Made by a program: the position numbers and the translations under genes. The notes beneath the pieces were generated by a model. The model had not been told where the DNA came from, ran no database searches, and saw only the letters and a list, made by a program, of their open reading frames with translations. From Cokeromyces recurvatus (Eukaryota > Mucoromycota > Mucoromycetes > Mucorales > Mucoraceae): a stretch of 64,000 nucleotides of DNA. Within the stretch, counting starts at the first letter, position 1, and each line of letters begins with the position of its first letter. Positions 7,251 to 63,980 of the stretch are shown here, in pieces. The DNA lies in contig NW_026251395.1 of NCBI RefSeq assembly GCF_025118155.1, positions 558,001 through 622,000 on the forward strand, read 5' to 3'.

Positions 7251-9304
7251 TTAAATGGGTTGTTGATGTGCTGCCAAAGTTAATTTAAATGTATTCTTGT
7301 TTAAATCATTCACAGAGGATGAAAAAGAAGGTAATGAAGCTAAATTAGAAGATAGTCTCATATCTTCCATATATTCATATTTAGTATCAAATGTTAAAGG
7401 TTCATCTATAAGCATGATTGGATCCTTTTTCTTATTACGGTTATTTGATATGATAGAAGTAATCATAGTAGATGATCTGTTATTATTATTTGAATTATCG
7501 CATCTTTGGCGTTTTTTAATATTATCAGTCTTCATCGATAACGGTCGCTTTTCATGATGTAATTTCAGACTATTTTTTTTTTTTTCGTTAAATAACCTAA
7601 AGTCATTCTTAATATTAGATACACTTACTATAAACCACATGCATTACATAAAGGTGTTCCATCAACATCACGTCTCCAGAGAGGTGTTGTAGATGTACCA
7701 CAATTCGAACAAATAGGTTGAATTGTATTTTCATTTTCACCTTTCACTTCTTTCTTTGAGGATTGAGGCTTGAAATGTTTAGGTCTAGGTATATTATGTA
7801 ACTTTAAGCTAAAAGAAAGAAAAAAAAAGAATGAATAATGATTAAATGTAATATTTATACCGAATCAAGATGTTTTATAATTTTACTATAAACCACATGC
7901 ATTACAAAGTAATTCATCTCTTGCAGATCTTCTCCAAAGTGGAGTCGTTGTTGTTTGACAGTTACTACAGATTGGAGTCTTTATTCCTTTTTCTTCGATT
8001 TCACAGTTATTATCTTGTTGACTTTTATTAAAAGTGGTAACTGTCTTTTTAAAGGAAGGCATAGATAAAGAAGTAAATGCTATGTTTTTCATCTTTTGAG
8101 AAGAAGGATTTAATGGTGGTGAAGATGCTCTAGATGAAGGTAAAGATTTTGATTGATGACGATAGACTAATTTTGTATCTTTTGTAAAAATCACGTTAGA
8201 ATCTTGTTGTGGTAGACATAAGAAGGAGTTCAGGTTATTATTATTATCTATAGAAGATGACTCTTGCTGATTAACTAAGCATGAAGAAGAAAGAGATAAA
8301 TTACTGTTACTAGTATATGTAAATAGTGAAGATGATGGAGTTATATAGGGTGTATTTGGCGTAGATTGAATAAGGGAGGGAGAGGAAGCAGAAGAAGAAG
8401 TAGTAGTAGAAGAGTATAGATGATTCATAATACCTTGAAGATGCTTAGTATCACTTTGGTTGTCATTGTTTATATGGGATACTTTTACTATTTCTTTTGA
8501 AGAAAATGGAGTCAATAACTTATTTTGTAATGTACTACTAGGAATAGGTGGCATAGTTTCTGCAGAAACATATAAGGCTGACCCTTGAAGCATGTTATTG
8601 GTTGTTTTTGTAGGGCCAGTAGAAAATAAATTTTGTTGAAAAGAAGAAGGAGGAGGAGGAGGAGGAGGTAATGATAAGGATGGTGGTTGCTGAAGGACAT
8701 TATAATTCAAGTGAGTAGAAGGTGAATAAGGTTGCCCTAACCTATTTTCACACTCATTAAAATAATGAATAGGTGAAGTTATATTATTATTGTGAGGAGT
8801 AGTGGTAGTAGTAACAGGCCAAGCTTCATTGATAAGATTATCTAATTGCTGCGAGCTAAGCCTTTCTTCTTCTGTAGTAGGATTTAAATAAGTCTGCATA
8901 TCATCATTGAAAGATTTAAAAATATCATCCAACTCGATAACTTGATCATCTGTTGTATTATATTGATTATGATCTTGAGTTGCGGAAGGATTAAATAAAG
9001 GTAGTATTACTTCTTTTGTTTGTAAGCGTTTATTGCACTTCTTTTTTGCTTCTAATAATTCAGCTTTCTTTTTCTTTGTTGCTTTTATAAAATCGAAATT
9101 ATCTGGTATCTTGAAATTACGAATTAATGTTGTATTATTTGCAAACCATAATCGCCATGATAAGTTTTCTAGTCTAGAACCATTTTCAAGTGCGTCTTTT
9201 ACTTTTGTACATACTTTCCAAGTTTCCGAAAGATCGTCTATAGAGTCATTACCAAATGGTAAAGTATGTAATTCACCTTTTACTTTCAACACAATAGGTG
9301 CCAT
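7251..9304 (-). CDS. GATA-type transcription factor with two zinc fingers and DUF1752-like N-terminus
   Basis: Three exons (complement of 7251-7569, 7629-7808, 7887-9304) join to 638 aa starting MAPIVLK; an ATG five codons upstream is also in frame. Residues about 43-58 ([16 protein letters not shown]) match the DUF1752 motif of AreA/Gat1-like nitrogen regulators. A long Ser/Asn/Pro/Gln-rich disordered region follows, including a poly-Pro run. Two GATA fingers of the C-X2-C-X17-C-X2-C type occur at about 446-470 and 506-530, both with TTPLWRR and CNACGLYLKLH. Each is split by an intron at exactly the same codon position, so the second finger probably arose by exon duplication. Expected role: DNA-binding regulator at GATA sites. 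The two-finger layout resembles fungal iron regulators (SreA/Urbs1), but the N-terminal motif points to nitrogen control, so the physiological role stays open. Confidence 0.85.
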
Positions 9305-9957
9305 TGTGTACATTAACAAAATAAAGATATTTATTTATTTATATTTTTCTCTTGAAAGATTCTTTTTTCTAAAAAAAAAATAAAAAAAAAAATAAAAAAA
9401 AAATAAAGGAAAATAAAAAAAAAAAAAGAAGAGAGGAAAGAAAAGAAATATAATAAAAGTAGTGTATAATAATTTTTAACAATGATAATAAAGCCGCTTT
9501 ACTACAGTAATGCGGAGAAAGAATACAAACGCAAGGGGAGAAAATGAAAAAAAAAATTATTTTATTTAATGCTTGTTGTAATGGTAGTTAGTAGCAATAG
9601 TAGTTAGTAGTGATAGTACTTAGTCAGTTAGTAGTAGTAGTAGTAGTAGTTGTTGTTGTTGTAGTAGTAGTAGTAGCGGTAGTTGTAGTAGTAATTGTAT
9701 TATTGCAATCTATTCCTCCAATCAATTCATACAATTTTATCATAGTAAATTGTAATACATTAGATATAAATAGTGAGACTTTATTCTACAACACTTGAAT
9801 ACGAAGAACTTTAACATGACCATATACACACACCCCATCCTTTTATTTAATTTACCCCTGAAATATGTGTGTTGCTATAAATATATTATGCATGACATGC
9901 ATTTGCGCACAGACAAATCATTAAGTAGATGGATCAATAATAATAGTAAACAAATAT
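9305..9957. other. intergenic region with AGT/TGT microsatellite
   Basis: This is the 5' region of the GATA gene and the 3' region of the uridine kinase gene. It contains A-rich blocks (9370-9430) and a trinucleotide microsatellite of AGT/TTG units at about 9628-9690, which gives a spurious poly-Val open frame. No gene is seen. Confidence 0.6.
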
Positions 9958-11579: not shown

Positions 11580-13121
11580 ATGATGATTACAGAGACAACA
11601 GCATTTAGTCATCCTTTTAACTTTAATGACATTCAAAGGGTACATCCTCTTTCAGCTTCCCCTGCTCCTTCTGCTTTTTTTCGTACAACATCCCCTGTTC
11701 AATCTACAAATACTATGGATGATGTTACAACAATTTTCGTAGTTGGATTCCCAGATGATATGTCTGAAAGAGAATTTCAAAATATGTTTACTTTTTGTCA
11801 GGGCTTTGAAGCTGCTTCATTAAAATGGCATTGTAAAGAACAAGAAGAGGAGAATATAGGAGGAAAGAAACAAATGGTAAATAGATTCAGAAATAAAAAT
11901 ATATAATTCCTATCTTAATTCTTTCCTTTCTTTTATTATTCTATATAGATTGGATTTGCTAGGTTTCGTACTCGTTTAGAAGCACTTGAGGCAATTGATG
12001 TTTTAAGCGGGAAAAGGATAGATCAAGAAAAGGGAACAATGTTAAAAGCAGAAATGGCCAAGAAAAATTTACATATTAAAAGAGGCTCAACTACTCAAAC
12101 TACATCATCCTCTTCTTCTTCTTCCTCATCTACAAGTACAACAATAGCACCACAGTCACAACTACAACTACAACCACCACCTCCACCACCCCCACCACCA
12201 CCACCTATCTCTTCTTCTTCTACTACAACAACCACTTCTTCTTCCAACAATAATAATAGTAATACGTTCATGATGACTACTTCTCTTACTATGCCTGATT
12301 CCTTAAAGAATATGCATCAACGTAATTATCCTCCTCATTTACCAAGTGATTTATTTTCTCCTCAAGACTATAAAAATGACTTGTTCATTGAACCTTCTAT
12401 TATATCACCTACTTTAAATGATTCCTTTTTCGGCATTCGATCCTCTTCCTTTGATCATCATGACTTGGGGTTCATTTCTTCTAATCGTGCATTTGGCTTA
12501 ATTCCAACTAATGAACAGCAACATAATCATCTTCATTCTCATTATTATCCTCCTCATCATCATCATTTTATGAATGAACAAGAAAATAGGATAGATTCTA
12601 ATTCTTATCATTATCTTTCAAAATTGACACCTTCTATTCATGACAATAAAATTTTAGAACAAGAATTACTTCGATTATCTCTCTTATCTAGTAATCAACA
12701 AGAACTACGTTTAAATCCAAAATTAACTGCTAATCCAGCAGATCAAAACCCTCCATGTAATACCCTTTATGTTGGCAATTTACCTTTAAATACCTTAGAA
12801 GATGAATTAAGACATCTATTTTCAAATTGCAGAGGATATCGTCGTATGTGTTTTCGCACTAAATCTCAAGGGCCCATGTGTTTTGTTGAATTCGAAGACA
12901 TTGGTTTTGCATCTCAAGCTTTAAATGATTTACAAGGACAAAAATTATCGAATTCAATTAAGGGAGGCATTCGATTATCTTTTAGCAAGAATCCATTATT
13001 TATTAAACCCAACAAGGAAAATAATATGATGACCCATTTTAAACCAATGGGAAATATCTTAATGACTGATCGACGTGGTAGTAGTAGTAATAGAGATTTA
13101 ATGTTTGATCCTCAACTATAA
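11580..13121 (+). CDS. Whi3-like RNA-binding protein with two RRM domains
   Basis: Exons 11580-11876 and 11949-13121 join to 489 aa. The first RRM spans the intron: [17 protein letters not shown] in exon 1 and [17 protein letters not shown] in exon 2. Residues about 165-270 are Ser/Thr-rich low complexity with an 11-residue Pro run. A His/Asn-rich stretch follows. The C-terminal RRM ([52 protein letters not shown]) is closest to the Whi3/Mde7 type. Such proteins bind mRNAs and, in yeast and Ashbya, Whi3 forms condensates that control G1 cyclin mRNAs. The disordered linker here fits that behaviour but does not prove it. Confidence 0.85.
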
Positions 13122-13277: not shown

Positions 13278-14983
13278 CAGTGCGTCCGCCGTCAATTGGA
13301 CAATTTTTTGAAAAAGCTGGTCAAATTTTTGAATAAATTTGCCCACTTTTTTGAAACTCAATTGGTCATTTGTTTGAAATTCATTTGGTCATTTTATTTA
13401 AATTCAATAGATCATTTTTTTGATCATTTTATCTGAGGTATATTTTGTTACTTTTTTTTTATACCATTATTTCGAGATTATTTTTCAAATGAGCATGAAT
13501 ATTTTTATGAAGATGGTGCTGGTAATCTCATTGATGAACAGGGCGAGCAAGCAAAAGCATATGTTGAAGAGAAGTCATTTCGTTTGAAAAGATTAACAGA
13601 TCTACGAAAATACATTAAGAACAAGGATCTCCAATTTGAAACGATCAGTTCAGACGATACAGTCATGAAAGAGGCTAGTCCAAAGAAAGAAAGACCTCTT
13701 GAGTATAACATTTATACAATGGAAGACCGTAGACGTTACTTTTATTTTTTGAAAGAAAAACTCATGAGACCAAAAGATGCGGCCATAGCCGCAAATGTAA
13801 ATTATAACACAGCGCGCAAATGGAAAAAGGCTTACGAGGATGATCCGGAAAGGAAGATTCCTATCAAAAAGACGAATCTGAATCCCAACAGACCAGTCAG
13901 TCAACTGAACGAAGCTCATAAAGTTTATCTAACCAGTTTTTTTGATGATGACTCAACTGCAACAATCCAGGACGCAGTTGAAAGCTTGACAGCCAACTTT
14001 GCTGGCTTACAAATAAAAAAAACAAGAGTAGCCGAGTTCATGAAGGAAGAATGTAATCTCAGCATCAAACTTATTAACCGACACCCTCTTGCCAGAAACG
14101 ATGATAAAAATCTTAAAGCTCGTGCTGAGTGGGTTGAGAAATTGATCAGCAATGGCGTCAATTATCTCGACAATTGTATATTTGTTGATGAGTCCGGGTT
14201 TGACATTAATATGCGTCGTAGTCGTGGTTGGTCACAGCGCGGTACGAAAGCAACTACCACAACTCCCTCCACCAAGGCTACCTCACATACTGTTCTTGGT
14301 GCAATATCAGCTAATGGTGTCGTCAATGTGAGTATGCGAGAATCTGGAAATGTTAAGAGAAGGAAAGTTGTAGGGGCCAAAAAGAGAAAGGCTCCTAAAG
14401 ATAAATTAACTATTCCCAGTGGCACTACTGGCGATCATTATCTTTTGTTTCTTAACGATACTATGGATATTATGGATGAGTTCCCAGAAATGAAAGGATT
14501 TTTTATTGTTATGGACAATGCACCAATTCATGTTCCTGCTATAATTGACCCTGTAATTGTAAGTCGGGGCTATAAGCCATTATACCTTCCTCCCTACTCG
14601 CCCGAACTCAACCCAATAGAACAATTTTGGGCCATTCTTAAGGGAAAAGTAAAGCGAAGTAAACTTAATGATGTTGAAACGCTTACTTCAAGAATTATTG
14701 AGGCTAGTGAAGAAGTACCTGTTGAGCATCTTCGAAATATTATTCAACATTCCATAAACCAATTTAGTAATTGCTTAAATAAGGTCCCTCTATAACTTTC
14801 CCTTAACATTATATAAAGTATAATAATTTTCAAAAAAAAAAAAAAAAGATCAATTGAATTTAAATAAAATGACCAAATGAATTTCAAACAAATGACCAAT
14901 TGAGTTTCAAAAAAGTGGGCAAATTTATTCAAAAATTTGACCAGCTTTTTCAAAAAATTGTCCAATTGACGGCGGACGCACTG
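13278..14983 (+). mobile_element. Tc1/mariner-superfamily transposon with 136-bp terminal inverted repeats
   Basis: The element is 1706 bp and begins CAGTGCGTCCGCCGTCAATT. Its terminal inverted repeats (13278-13413 and 14848-14983) are 136 bp each and differ at one position by my reading. A TA dinucleotide flanks both ends (13276-13277 and 14984-14985), as expected for the target duplication of this superfamily. One transposase frame fills the interior. The near-identical repeats indicate a recent insertion. It sits between the Whi3-like gene and the SAP kinase gene without breaking either. Confidence 0.95.
13584..14795 (+). CDS. Tc1/mariner-type DD34E transposase
   Basis: The frame from 13584 gives 403 residues. 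A helix-turn-helix region (about 70-130, with AAIAANVNYNTARKWKKAY) precedes a DDE catalytic core. The first Asp is in IFVDESGF, the second in VMDNAPIH, and the Glu in SPELNPIEQFW; 34 residues separate the second Asp from that Glu, the Tc1/IS630 spacing. The codon at 13584 is TTG. The same frame is open upstream to a TGA at 13434-13436 and reads protein-like sequence (EYFYEDGAGNLIDEQGEQ), but has no ATG; the first in-frame ATG is residue 28 (MKEASPKK). So the N-terminus needs an unseen intron, a non-ATG start, or this copy has a start-region mutation. The catalytic core is intact. Confidence 0.9.
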   Translation: MKRLTDLRKYIKNKDLQFETISSDDTVMKEASPKKERPLEYNIYTMEDRRRYFYFLKEKLMRPKDAAIAANVNYNTARKWKKAYEDDPERKIPIKKTNLNPNRPVSQLNEAHKVYLTSFFDDDSTATIQDAVESLTANFAGLQIKKTRVAEFMKEECNLSIKLINRHPLARNDDKNLKARAEWVEKLISNGVNYLDNCIFVDESGFDINMRRSRGWSQRGTKATTTTPSTKATSHTVLGAISANGVVNVSMRESGNVKRRKVVGAKKRKAPKDKLTIPSGTTGDHYLLFLNDTMDIMDEFPEMKGFFIVMDNAPIHVPAIIDPVIVSRGYKPLYLPPYSPELNPIEQFWAILKGKVKRSKLNDVETLTSRIIEASEEVPVEHLRNIIQHSINQFSNCLNKVPL

Positions 14984-15513: not shown

Positions 15514-17793
15514 ATGATTTTTGAAACCATTAAACGACATATTGATCCATCTTTAGAGGTAAATGATGTGCTTACTTTATTGCATGCACTATTCTTATAT
15601 ACCTATTTGTGTTATTATTAGATGATAAATAGAGACTCTTTAGACAAATTAATGTTAGCTGATATCATTGAATATTGTCAAGAAAGAGGTAAGAAAATAA
15701 TAGAGATGAAGGATGATAAAGAAAGAAGATACGCGTGATATTCAAGTTGGGAATAGGTTTAAAAACAGAAGGTGACAAATCAGAATTAATTGAAGATTTA
15801 ATTAGTTGGGTATGTATGATAAAGTAAAGTAATATCTATCTATCTTCTCACACACACACACACACACAACTAGAAAGAAAATATTCAACTTGTACCTGCT
15901 CCTTCAACACCAAGGTTATTTACAGCACTTGAATTATTGCCTGATTCTTCTTCTACTTTACCTCCACAACAGAGATTAGAACTTAATTCTCGTGATTTGT
16001 CTTTATTATTTTTAGATGATAAAAACCCTGATTTTGACATACCTTATCATACTCTTGTTATTGGTAAGAAATTAGGCAGTGGTGGTTTTAAAGATTGCTA
16101 TGCAGGTAAATGAATGAATGAATGAAAGCAAAGTAAAAAAAAAAAAAATAATGCCTCAAAATTGAACTTGTTCATAGGAATATATAAAGGAGTAATTATT
16201 ATCAGATAAACAAAAACCCTCTATTCCATTATTTAACATACATACATTTCTTTAAAAAAGGAACCTGTAGCTATTGGTGAATTAAGACTAACTCACTTTA
16301 ATCAAGTCGATCTGGATGAAATTAAACATGAAATAAATGTATTAAAGTAAGTCTAATATATACTTTGAAAGAATAGAATCTATTTTAATAATGGTTATAG
16401 ACAACTTCGACATGAAAATGTGATACGATTCATTGGCGTTTGTACACATCCTGAGCATTTATGTATAATTACGGAACTATGTTCTAAAGGAGATTTATTT
16501 GATGTTATTAGAAACTATAAAAAGCCGAATTTTTCACAATTAGTACGTGTACATGTATATGTATATATTGTTTTTAACTGTTGAATGATACATATATATA
16601 TATATATATATGTATATTTGTAGGTTATGTATATGTATGATATTGCATTAGGTGTATCTTATCTTCATACAAGAAGGTAAATAGATACAATTTAAAGTAT
16701 ACGATATATATATATCAAACTAATATAGAATTCATATAGACCTTCTATTATACACAGAGTATGTTGTATCTCAATAATTGCCCTCTCCCTCCACACATTA
16801 TTATTATTATTTACAATGAATTCCTTCTTTTTATTGATATATATATATAAAAAAGGACCTGAAATCAATGAATATATTGGTATGTATACATATAAATATA
16901 TTTGCAAACAAAATAGAGATCTCACATACACACGTACACACACACATATATATATATATATATTTTACTTACTTGTCATAGATCTCGGGAGATGATAGAG
17001 CTAAAGTAAATGATTTTGGATTAGCTAGAATAAGACCTAAAGCAAATATTCTTATGCATACACATTGTGGGACTCCAAACTGGTACATAATATAATATAA
17101 TATATATAAAAAAAAAGGTACATCAAACTTATTTATTTATTTTTCCTTTTTTAGGCAAGGTAAAAATAAAATAAATAAAAGTAAAGAAATTTGATTCTAG
17201 AATAGACTTACACATATAATATGATTCATTAGCTCCTGAATATTGGTCCTCAAATCCTAGTTATACAGAAAAGGTAAATTTATAGATATATATATATGTA
17301 TATATACAGAATAAAAGAATGTATACTCAACATGTATTATAGGTTGATGTAAGTAGCAAACGAGCAAATGTGAAGAGACATTATACATGTATATGTTTAT
17401 TTTATTTTATTTTAGGTCTATGCTTGTGGTTTGATATTTTGGGAAATTCTGAGTTGGGGTGAATACGGCTATCCATTTCAAGGTAATTAGACTTGTATTT
17501 TATACTAAAATTATTCAATTAAAAAATAAAATAAAATGGAAATAGATTTAGCAGAACATGCATTGTATATTGCAGTGAAAGAGCACCGAAAGAGACCTCC
17601 TCTAGGAAAATTAAGTCAGATCTATCCACATCAGCTTTTAATACTTATCATGGGGATGTGGGAAGATAAAGCTCATTTAGTAAATATGCAGAGAGTATAA
17701 TAGAATAGATACATATTTTAATGTGATTCTTATTTATAATAGAGACCTTCAATGAACCAAGTAGTTGACGTATTAGCTGCTTATCTTACATAA
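15514..17793 (+). CDS. SAP-domain protein kinase (TKL-like) with WNK-like lysine placement
   Basis: Seventeen exons join to 379 aa: 15514-15558, 15622-15688, 15757-15809, 15874-16105, 16178-16191, 16261-16346, 16401-16542, 16624-16676, 16740-16758, 16856-16879, 16982-17082, 17155-17159, 17233-17273, 17343-17348, 17416-17482, 17546-17679, 17743-17793. Residues about 20-55 match a SAP motif (LADIIEYCQERGLKTEGDKS), usually a DNA/chromatin-binding helix pair. The kinase domain follows from about 115: glycine loop GSGGFKDCYAG, HRDLKSMNIL, NDFGLAR, CGTPNWQAPEYW and a full C-lobe. The beta-3 strand reads EPVAIGELRL, with Gly143 where the ATP-anchoring Lys is expected; Lys128 in the glycine loop is where WNK kinases carry theirs. 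Catalytic Asp238 and Asp256 are present, so it may be active. Exons of 5, 6, 14, 19 and 24 nt are striking. Substrate and pathway are unknown. Confidence 0.82.
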
Positions 17794-17838: not shown

Positions 17839-18714
17839 CTATTCATCTTTTAAAGTAGATGCAATATATGTATCTAATGAAGTATTAGCATATGTTCTTG
17901 TCCATAATTTCGCTTCTTCTATAAATCCTGCATTGTCATTAGTATAGACTTTGGCTACTTGATAATCTTGAGGAGAAGAAGCATCAGGTGAATCTAATAA
18001 GGCTTGAATGGACATAAGCATAGTTCTTAATGTCATAACAGGGGACCAATTGGCATTTAAAACATCCTATATATATACGGTATATTGAGTTGAATCAAGA
18101 CAATACATGTATATTTATTCCTATAAATACATACCAAACAAATGGCGCCCTACAAGTAGAATAAATGCTTTAGAATTAGTTGCATAATAAAATTAGATGT
18201 ACTTACAGTTTGTGAGCTCACATTTGGATGATAGACTTTAGTTATAAATTTAACTTTTGGTGGAGAAAATGGGTGATTAGCCTATTATAATATTTAGCGT
18301 ATATTATAACATTTATTTCTTCTTAAAATTGTGATGTTTTACGCTTAATTGAATATCTAATAAAAAGAGGCCACCTATATATATGCATATATTATTATTA
18401 TTATATAAGATTTCAATTCTTATTTATATTGAAGATATGTGATATAATTTTAGAGTACTTTTTTTTTCTTTCTTTTTTTTCTTTTTTTTTTTACCTTCAT
18501 AAGGCGTATCGCGTGGTCCAGTAATAGATCCAATCAAATGATCTACACAAAAAGATAAAAATGTCAATGACTTGTATAATCTCGATGATTTATATGAATG
18601 TATATTACAAATGTTAGATTCGTCTAGAACATGCACTGCTAAAGGCGCAGTATTATCCTCACTGACATCTTTTATTTCATTTAAAATACGTCTTTGCATA
18701 GCGGGAGGCGCCAT
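17839..18714 (-). CDS. ubiquitin-conjugating enzyme E2, Ubc1/UBE2K class without UBA domain
   Basis: Six exons (complement of 17839-18066, 18135-18149, 18207-18281, 18343-18374, 18495-18542, 18609-18714) join to 167 aa. The UBC fold is complete: LIGSITGPRDTPYEGGLF, HPFSPPKVKFITKVYHPNVS, then GAICLDVLNANWSPVMTLRT with the catalytic Cys in GAICL. The tail (SIQALLDSPDASSPQD and the Lys/Trp helix) matches UBE2K/Ubc1 rather than Ubc4 or Ubc13. Unlike Ubc1 it stops soon after the fold and has no UBA domain. Role: accepts ubiquitin from E1 and passes it to substrates with an E3. The exon with the catalytic Cys is only 15 nt. The stop lies 46 bp beyond that of the convergent kinase gene. Confidence 0.9.
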
Positions 18715-18940
18715 TGTTGATTTTTACGATTATATTGAAAAAAATAAAAAAATAAAATGAATGAATAGGATTTTTTTTTTTATGAACAAAGACATTATAT
18801 ATTACTCGGTTTTTACTGGTTGAATTAAAATTTAATTCTCAGCTGCAATGCTTGTAAAAAAAAAAAAAAAAAGAAAAGTAAAAGGCTTGAAGACACAAAG
18901 AAATTCATTATTTTTTAGAGACACCTTGCATGTAACTACT

Positions 18941-57352: not shown

Positions 57353-59317
57353 TTACTTTTGAATTGCTGCAATGCATCGACGACCATCAAATACAACTCG
57401 CCATATACCATCTACATCCGTAATCAAGTCCCGAATAAAGCGTCCAGTTTTAATATCCCACATCTTTAAACCACCTTCTGAGCCTGAAATAATTTTATCA
57501 TTATCATGCTGAAAACATGTAATCGAATTAGCATGTCCTGCTAACGCATGTTGGCAAACACCTGTATCAGGTGACCAAATTCTCAAAATTGAATCTGCAG
57601 CAGCAGAGACGAGATAATTTTTACTTAATCCTAGTAACCCGACCAGGACAGTATGACCCTCTAGTTTCTTGATACAATCACCTGTCTTTAAATCCCAAAT
57701 ACGTATACTTGAGTCCATACTGCCACTCATACAACGATTCCTTTCTGAATCAATTACGACTGAATAAACTCTGTTTGTATGACCTTCCAAGACATGAACT
57801 GTATGACCTGTTCTGATATTCCAGACACGAACGGTATGATCATAACTACCGCTTACGAGTGTATCACCATGTGCTGCAATGGCTCGAACAGACTGACCAT
57901 GACCAACTAAAGCACGTACAAAATACGGATTTGGTTTAGTGGATGTATCTCCAAAATAGTGTCCCTCCACATCCTTTGGATTAGGTAACCTCCAGATTCT
58001 TAAAGTAGAATCACGCGAGCCAGTAATGATTAAAGATGGATCATTCCCTTGAATAGGCTTCGTGATCAGTAAACATCTTACAGTGGAGGTATGTCCATTA
58101 AAGATATGTGTACATTTGCCAGTTTCCATGTCCCAGACACGTACCCGTCGATCAGTAGAGCCAGTGACCAGAGTATTATCCAGATATTGAAGAGCCCATA
58201 CACCCCCTTCATGACCCTCAAGCGTCATTCGTTTCTTGCCTGTTGCAGTAGAATAAATATTAACATGAGCATCGTCTGCTCCAGATACAATTTTATCATC
58301 ATCAAACTGTAAACATGTCACTACAAATTTTTCATGACCCCTAAACGTCCTTTCCTCTGCTCTTCCCTTTCTCCAATTTTGTCTTAATGTATGATGTATC
58401 GCATATAATTTTTTATAATAACTATAGTTTGTAGTGATTGATACATTCATAGATGGTAATGGATTAACAAGTGAATAGCCATCCTTTATTAAAAGTTGTT
58501 TCCATACTTTATCATCCGTATCTATGATGGATTTCCATTTCTTACATACACATGAAGCTGTACTTAATGAAAATGCATCCAAATAACTTATAATATATCT
58601 TGAAATCTCTAAGGGTAATGTAGATAATAGATCATGCTTTAAAACAGGGACAATGGCTGAGTTTATAAATTGAAGGGTATCTATTGATGATCGTTTTAAT
58701 AATTGAAATAATAGACGAGACTTGAGATTAGCTGGTATCGAATCAAAGATGCTTATCATGGAAGGTATTTGCTGTAAGGCCTTTAATGTATCATGATCGT
58801 CCATAGTAAGTTGTCGACTTGAAAATAAATTGCAATTATCTGCTTTTAAAATCCTCGGTTTCTTTTTATAGCTTGTAAATAGTTTATCATCATGTGTGAC
58901 TGATCTCTTTTTTGAAAAAGAAGAGCCATCGAGGAAAGCGGTTATATCATTTATAGTAGTAGTCATAGTAGAAGAAGAAGAGGAAGATTCAGTTATCATA
59001 TTTGTAGTGATCATAGATAATGGAGAAGAAGGGTATCCGAGTTTATAAGTGTGAGGACTTTTTATACAAAATTGAGTTAACTCGGTATTTTTATTACTAG
59101 TATGGTTTAACTTTTTTTTTTGTTTTTTTAATAATATAATAATATTAGTTGTAAGACTTCTTTATCCATACTTTGAGAGCTTTTTTTTTCTATTTACCTC
59201 TTTTGAATAATTATTGTCCATGTCATTTTTATTTGATTCTAGAACTTTAAATTGTACAAGATTTGAGTTTATTTCGGTAGATGAATGAATCGGTAGTGAT
59301 GAATCTTGATTTTGCAT
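57353..59317 (-). CDS. CDC4: F-box/WD40 protein Cdc4 (FBXW7-like), SCF substrate receptor
   Basis: Two exons (complement of 57353-59096 and 59172-59317) join to 629 aa. The first exon gives a short polar N-terminus (MQNQDSSLPIHSSTEIN). The F-box lies at about 210-255 (LPLEISRYIISYLDAFSLS, CVCKKWKSIIDTDDKVWKQL). It is followed by the RTFRGHEKFVVTCLQFDDDK linker and seven WD40 blades (LEGHEGGVWAL, VRVWDMETGKC, FNGHTSTVRC, LVGHGQSVRAI, YDHTVRVWNI, LEGHTNRVYSV, LAGHANSITCF). Cdc4 recruits phosphorylated degron substrates such as CDK inhibitors to the SCF ubiquitin ligase. The second exon alone already holds the domains; an internal ATG at 59014 could start a shorter form. Confidence 0.9.
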
Positions 59318-62937: not shown

Positions 62938-63980
62938 TTAAAAAGTCCAACGATCTCTAATAGATGAAACCCATTCAGGGGCACCTTCAAAGCCATTTTT
63001 GCCTTGTTGATAGTCAGCAAAGGCTTGCTCTATTTCACGCCTAGTATTCATTACAAAAGGACCATGCTGAACTGTAGATTCTTTAATAGGTTCACCAGCA
63101 ATAATAACAAAATGACAATCATCCGAAGTAGATTCAATAGGAATAAAGTCACCTTCATTATCACTTAAAACTAAGGTATGATGTGCTTCTGATGAATGAT
63201 GATTACCACCAAATAAGCCCGTACCTGAAATTGTATAAATAAAGCCTGCATAGCTCTTGGGAATGATTTGTTCCATCTTTTTCCCCTTTTTCAATTTAAC
63301 ATCAATAAACATAGTAGGTGTTCTAGTCATGACAGGACTTTTAACACCATAGGATTCACCTGCAATGACTTTAATCGTCACACCTTCTTCAGGAATAACT
63401 TGAGTTACTTTTTCTTTAGGATATTCTTGATAATTGGGTTCTGACATCTTGTCTTTGCTCGAAAGATTAACCCAAAGTTGAAGACCATGTGACCTCTTAT
63501 TACTTGCAGGGATCTCAGCATGAACGATACCACGAGCTGCAGACATCCATTGTAAATCACCAGGACCAATTCGACCTTTATGACCTTTAAAGTCTTCATG
63601 TAAGAATTCACCTTCCAACATATAAGTTACCGTTTCTATAGATCCATGGTCAATATTCAATATTCATTTACTCTATTATTGTATTTATTTAGTTATTTAC
63701 CAAATCCTCTATGAGGATGATCTGGGAATCCTCCAGGAGCATGAACATCAAATTCATCCAACATTAAGAAAGGATCCAAGTTACGAAGAGCATTGCTGCC
63801 AATAGAACGATACACTATTATTATATAAAATAAAAAAAAGTTAGTATTATTTATAATAATATTTATATGTATGCTTATATTAATACCTTTAGCACCCACT
63901 CCATCCATTTGTTCTCTTGAAAGAACAGCCTTTGTAATGGTTCTAGCAATCTTAGTAGCAGTAGTTATAGAGGATATCAT
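62938..63980 (-). CDS. pirin (cupin-superfamily protein)
   Basis: Three exons (complement of 62938-63635, 63701-63814, 63887-63980) join to 301 aa. The first cupin barrel is complete: RNLDPFLMLDEFDV, HPHRGFETVTYMLEGEFLHED, PGDLQWMSAARGIVHAE. The three His and one Glu that bind the metal in pirins (HPHRGFE and the later IVHAE) are present. The second barrel (PKSYAGFIYTISGTGLFG) lacks a full set, as is usual. Pirins have been reported as quercetinases and as transcriptional cofactors; which applies here cannot be told. The N-terminal MISSITTATKIARTITKAV has a basic amphipathic look and could be a mitochondrial leader. Confidence 0.93.

Follow-up and report, generated by a model that had tools for sequence, protein, structure and literature searches.

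WNK kinases carry a lysine at the third-glycine position of the glycine loop and none in strand beta-3, where the VAIK motif of other kinases has it, and a 2007 survey called them the sole functional family of eukaryotic protein kinases (ePKs) without K72 (PMC1821047; here and below, papers are cited for the passages drawn upon). A beta-2 lysine was later reported for POMK (SGK196) as well (PMC10211241), and in WNK1 the lysine at this position is required (PMC10211241, PMC4718504). Here we describe a gene from Cokeromyces recurvatus, located in a 64,000-nucleotide stretch of contig NW_026251395.1 (the window), that encodes an N-terminal SAP motif followed by a kinase domain with a WNK-like lysine swap; we refer to the gene, its product and their homologues as SAPK. 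We consider it likely that SAPK belongs to the TKL group, is active as a Ser/Thr kinase, relocated its ATP lysine independently of WNK and is tethered by its SAP motif.

In the window protein, Lys128 stands at the third loop glycine (KLGSGGFKDCY) and Gly143 at the VAIK lysine site (PVAIGEL), which bears out what a preceding sequence-only reading had noticed in this protein alone. Homologues were searched with the window protein, the divergent member P0110 and a profile from eight distant members as queries, and the best 120 matches of each search were pooled into an alignment of the query plus 219 proteins (220 rows). The loop lysine is present in 191 of these rows, with 23 rows showing the canonical pattern (Lys in beta-3 together with Gly in 16, Ala in 6 and Ser in 1 at the loop) and 6 having no residue at the loop. 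Among the 191 loop-lysine rows, the beta-3 site is occupied by Gly (123), Ala (48), Ser (11), Cys (2) or Gln (1, P0062) and is a gap in 6, so that the canonical VAIK lysine is missing from SAPK. Homologues with a lysine at position 143, which the sequence-only reading had named as counter-evidence, did not appear: position 143 is occupied in 185 family rows, some of them from contigs of 1.0-1.5 kb, and in none of these by lysine. None of the 220 aligned rows has lysine at both places. The residue at the emptied site is mostly Gly in early-fungal rows and mostly Ala or Ser in basidiomycete rows, with exceptions in Mixia (Gly) and Rhodotorula (Cys). In P0115 (Furculomyces) the strand reads VAVAKFKG, with Ala at the beta-3 site, Lys as the next residue and the loop lysine retained.

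Because the loop-lysine class is defined by the lysine itself, the tree of these proteins was built without columns 122-146. A single branch nevertheless splits the 191 loop-lysine rows from the 23 canonical ones (FastTree, Shimodaira-Hasegawa-like support 97, with long-branch warnings), and 30 chosen SAPK members form one side of a single branch with support 100/100. Judged from the aligned sequences, the swap is not a product of chance or sequencing error; an invariant loop lysine combined with variation among small residues at the emptied site is what a functional relocation would predict. The impression that a swap-bearing SAP-kinase is undescribed held in searches aimed at the family, where no description of it appeared among the open-access papers listed.

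The window covers positions 558001-622000 of contig C64 in the 28-Mb, 64-contig genome. GT..AG splicing joins its 17 exons in one frame from ATG to TAA, and the resulting protein, which ends directly past the kinase domain, has exactly the 379 amino acids put forward from sequence alone. Its features, with their support in brackets, are as follows.

15514..17793, plus strand, SAPK gene (GT..AG splicing; ungapped P0001 alignment)
15514..15558, plus strand, exon 1 (splice model)
15622..15688, plus strand, exon 2, where the SAP motif begins (splice model; SAP at residues 22-50)
15757..15809, plus strand, exon 3, where the SAP motif ends (splice model; Pfam SAP)
15874..16105, plus strand, exon 4, with linker, beta-1 and glycine loop (splice model)
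16090..16092, plus strand, Lys128 codon AAA, the relocated lysine and first beta-2 residue in the P0001 model (splice model, alignment, AlphaFold2)
16178..16191, plus strand, exon 5, a 14-nt micro-exon (splice model, alignment)
16261..16346, plus strand, exon 6, with beta-3 and helix C (splice model)
16276..16278, plus strand, Gly143 codon GGT, the usual VAIK lysine site (splice model, alignment)
16330..16332, plus strand, codon of the helix-C glutamate Glu161 (conservation, see below)
16401..16542, plus strand, exon 7 (splice model)
16624..16676, plus strand, exon 8 (splice model)
16740..16758, plus strand, exon 9, 19 nt (splice model)
16856..16879, plus strand, exon 10, 24 nt, with HRD Asp238 as its first residue (DLKSMNIL; splice model, conservation)
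16856..16858, plus strand, HRD Asp238 codon (splice model)
16982..17082, plus strand, exon 11, which holds DFG (splice model, conservation)
17012..17014, plus strand, DFG Asp256 codon (splice model)
17155..17159, plus strand, exon 12, a 5-nt micro-exon (splice model, alignment)
17233..17273, plus strand, exon 13 (splice model)
17343..17348, plus strand, exon 14, a 6-nt micro-exon (splice model, alignment)
17416..17482, plus strand, exon 15 (splice model)
17546..17679, plus strand, exon 16 (splice model)
17743..17793, plus strand, exon 17, stop codon included (splice model)

The splice model requires short exons of 14, 19, 24, 5 and 6 nt, the two shortest lying within a gene of 2.3 kb. The homologue P0001, whose frame of 379 amino acids comes from a contig of 1,266 bases, aligns with the window protein ungapped over the full length (344 of 379 residues identical) and so supports the reading frame across every junction. 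This includes 16191-16261, an intron directly behind the 14-nt micro-exon, where an alternative splice had been considered and finds no support. Two other models, one with the exon-3 acceptor at 15747 and one without the 5-nt exon, were rejected because they break the frame. Several micro-exons, and five public homologue models (P0011, P0066, P0076, P0102 and P0118) in which just the eight residues encoded by the 24-nt HRD-Asp exon are missing, could suggest that mis-splicing or faulty annotation has produced the swap and that the true protein reads VAIK. However, the Gly143 codon lies inside an exon, away from junctions, and the absence of a beta-3 lysine extends over all 185 retrieved family rows that can be read at this site, short contigs included, which makes such an artefact a negligible prospect. 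The five homologue models look kinase-dead because those eight residues are missing; this is probably an overlooked micro-exon, in-frame exon skipping being possible. Among the scored candidates of 100 matches in its own genome, no second copy of the gene was found; identity outside the gene is at most 46% (over about 50 residues).

With the exception of the lysine, the catalytic residues are retained, as had been noted for the two aspartates of the window protein. The helix-C glutamate (Glu161) is Glu in 189 of 190 family residues, and the HRD and DFG aspartates are Asp in 180/182 and 185/188, respectively. The HRD and DFG exceptions (P0009, P0108, P0116 and P0119) resemble gene models that are damaged or partial. 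Conservation in the family also extends to the DLKSxN and APE residues. Lys128 aligns with the loop lysine of WNK1, for which reason a catalytic role is predicted for it. An AlphaFold2 model of P0001 (70-sequence alignment; mean predicted local distance difference test score 82.4) has Lys128 opening beta-2 (residues 128-135) and residue 143 within beta-3 (138-145). In the mechanism that we propose, the ATP-positioning lysine would have moved from the beta-3 VAIK site (now Gly, Ala, Ser or Cys) to the start of beta-2 (GxGGFK), where Lys128 would hold the ATP phosphates and pair with Glu161 by analogy with the WNK1 loop lysine. Since the HRD and DFG aspartates are kept, SAPK is read as an active Ser/Thr kinase that uses its loop lysine. 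Loss of the VAIK lysine usually means an inactive kinase (PMC4280135), and SAPK could accordingly be pictured as a pseudokinase that has lost the beta-3 lysine, keeps the loop lysine for another reason and has a scaffolding or nucleotide-sensing role linked to its SAP motif. We regard this as very unlikely, given that HRD, DFG, helix-C Glu, DLKSxN and APE are conserved family-wide, unlike in a decaying active site, and that a beta-2 lysine supports activity in both WNK and POMK (PMC10211241).

The loop lysine, a beta-3 strand without lysine, the helix-C Glu and HRD are common to SAPK, mammalian WNK1 and the four WNKs encoded in this genome, but WNK rows read DLG or DMG, HRDxKCDN and GTPEF and have no W(x)6RP, whereas SAPK reads DFG, HRDLKS, GTPNW and MW(x)6RPSM; SAPK as a family does not carry the WNK signature residues DLG/DMG, KCDN and GTPEF, and the window protein also differs in stopping at the end of its kinase domain. 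The four genomic WNKs (C11:349325, C23:363516, C34:892110 and C63:487884; L029-L032) are 52-55% identical to the mammalian WNK1 domain, and those two whose N-lobe is complete show the loop lysine, Asn at beta-3 and DMG. WNKs are also reported from microsporidia (PMC4280135). The TKL kinases (plant CTR1, which is Raf-like, and TNNI3K among them) share TKL residues and their side of the tree with SAPK, with CTR1 being the top sequence match among single-domain PDB chains and also the top fold match, but all 16 of 16 TKL rows have Gly, Ala or Ser at the loop and Lys in beta-3. No WNK chain is found among the 50 fold matches listed, which is not to be taken as evidence of absence.

Three further systems are set apart from SAPK by their descriptions. 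POMK also has its lysine moved to beta-2, but it is a sugar kinase and differs as well in its DFG, HRD and helix-C Glu, all of them altered (PMC10211241). FslK, a fungi-specific lineage, is, like SAPK, fungal, close to TK and TKL, and numerous in Agaricomycetes, and the passages of the source drawn upon mention no lysine shift; its reported loss from Ustilaginomycotina and Pucciniomycotina, where SAPK is present, argues against SAPK being FslK (PMC3937382). Fungal TKLs appear in kinome papers, in the cited passages of which the swap goes unmentioned (PMC2838846, PMC5030230, PMC3777111). CAK-chloro, a bacterial ELK subfamily, is kinase-like, lies outside the ePKs and has Arg instead of Lys.

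The placement trees, computed with the swap-trait columns removed, join SAPK with TKL and set WNK across the branch from them, with support of 98/97 and 97/97 in two trees. The sequence-only reading, which had left a choice between convergence and a new family, finds support here: that reading had listed as a point against itself a position inside ordinary TKL kinases with no conserved loop lysine, whereas SAPK groups with TKL as a clade of its own with an invariant loop lysine. At positions 241, 305, 357 and 365, WNK rows depart from both SAPK and TKL wherever a residue is present. Phe257 and Trp279 are found in 30/30 and Ser241 in 29/30 SAPK rows, where the four WNK rows have Met or Leu, Phe and Cys, respectively. 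The W(x)6RP motif, which is common to TK and TKL (PMC3937382), is conserved in the family (Trp357 in 165/166 and Pro365 in 157/164 residues), with Trp357 present in 2 of 10 other kinases. Membership of SAPK in WNK was considered seriously because the best matches in its own genome are WNKs; trees and residues favour TKL. We retained as an alternative a joint clade in which SAPK and WNK are sisters, a single move of the lysine took place in their ancestor, and WNK lost the TKL-like residues or SAPK gained them. This would fit the WNK1 position of the loop lysine and the Cys at the beta-3 site of WNK1, which is also found in two SAPK family rows; against it stand the branch support, the four deviating positions and the identity values given below, and we judge it unlikely.

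Several observations weigh against the reading of SAPK as an independent, SAP-tethered member of TKL. The approximately unbiased (AU) test leaves the joint SAPK and WNK clade unrejected (P = 0.40 and 0.205), and the four best non-self loci in the genome by score are its four WNKs (35-38% identity). With the trait columns left out, SAPK averages 33.3% identity to TKL and 31.6% to WNK, a slight lean toward TKL. Two of the six residues that distinguish SAPK from WNK are common in other kinases too (Phe257 in 10/10, Trp279 in 6/10) and for this reason give no argument for TKL. Finally, the Pfam SAP match of the window protein (residues 22-50) scores 23.1 bits against a cut-off of 23.9, just short of the threshold, while the motif is recovered in 48 of 70 chosen members (E ≤ 0.01).

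SAP motifs usually act as nucleic-acid tethers. In SAPK, Lys45 and Leu48 of the motif are conserved in 159/163 and 161/163 rows where aligned, and the P0001 model shows helices at 19-23, 27-36 and 45-58 in this region. Through this N-terminal motif the kinase is probably anchored to nucleic acid or chromatin. WNKs sense chloride through leucines of their DLG motif (PMC5346417); because the DLG leucine is replaced by Phe in 185 of 188 SAPK residues, low chloride sensitivity would be expected of SAPK by analogy. A bolder version of the independent swap, in which the emptied back pocket would be an ion or metabolite sensor gating a SAP-tethered chromatin kinase, in parallel to WNK chloride sensing, seems to us quite unlikely.

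With respect to distribution, the closest named matches of the window protein, among the matches listed, are from Choanephora, Mucor and Cokeromyces. The named members in these lists cover Mucorales, Mortierella, glomeromycotes, Endogone, Coemansia, Basidiobolus, Dimargaris, Furculomyces and Massospora (with Kickxellomycota represented), the basidiomycetes Meredithblackwellia, Rhodotorula, Phakopsora, Kalmanozyma, Heterobasidion and Mycena, and the aphelid Amoeboaphelidium. P0126, labelled Partr, we take to be the aphelid Paraphelidium, and the taxonomic placement of most named members is presumed from general knowledge, four names having been looked up. No Ascomycota or chytrids occur among the named matches listed, many matches carrying no name. 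The relocation probably occurred once, before the split of aphelids, zygomycete-type fungi and Basidiomycota, and probably independently of WNK. If a TKL family did make the identical move, the swap would be a repeatable solution and not a one-off, and SAPK, which is present side by side with WNK in one genome, would offer a natural control to show which properties of WNK, chloride sensing among them, are consequences of where the lysine lies. A plain VAIK/HRD/DFG rule would label SAPK proteins as kinase-dead.

Directly upstream of the gene, a DDE_3 transposase domain is encoded in an open frame (13437-14795, plus strand), and directly downstream, in convergent orientation, lie open frames (17839-18724, minus strand) that we take to resemble exons of a ubiquitin-conjugating enzyme. 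Other frames in the window contain GATA (7886-9334, minus strand), RRM (11949-13121, plus strand), F-box and WD40 (57353-59161, minus strand) and pirin (62938-63663, minus strand) domains. Elsewhere in the genome, some kinase matches score identically across contigs (C26:81707 and C31:31339; C18:196640 and C27:202005), and the translations of L002 and L003 are identical in the part displayed; this would point to either a duplicated stretch or redundant contigs.
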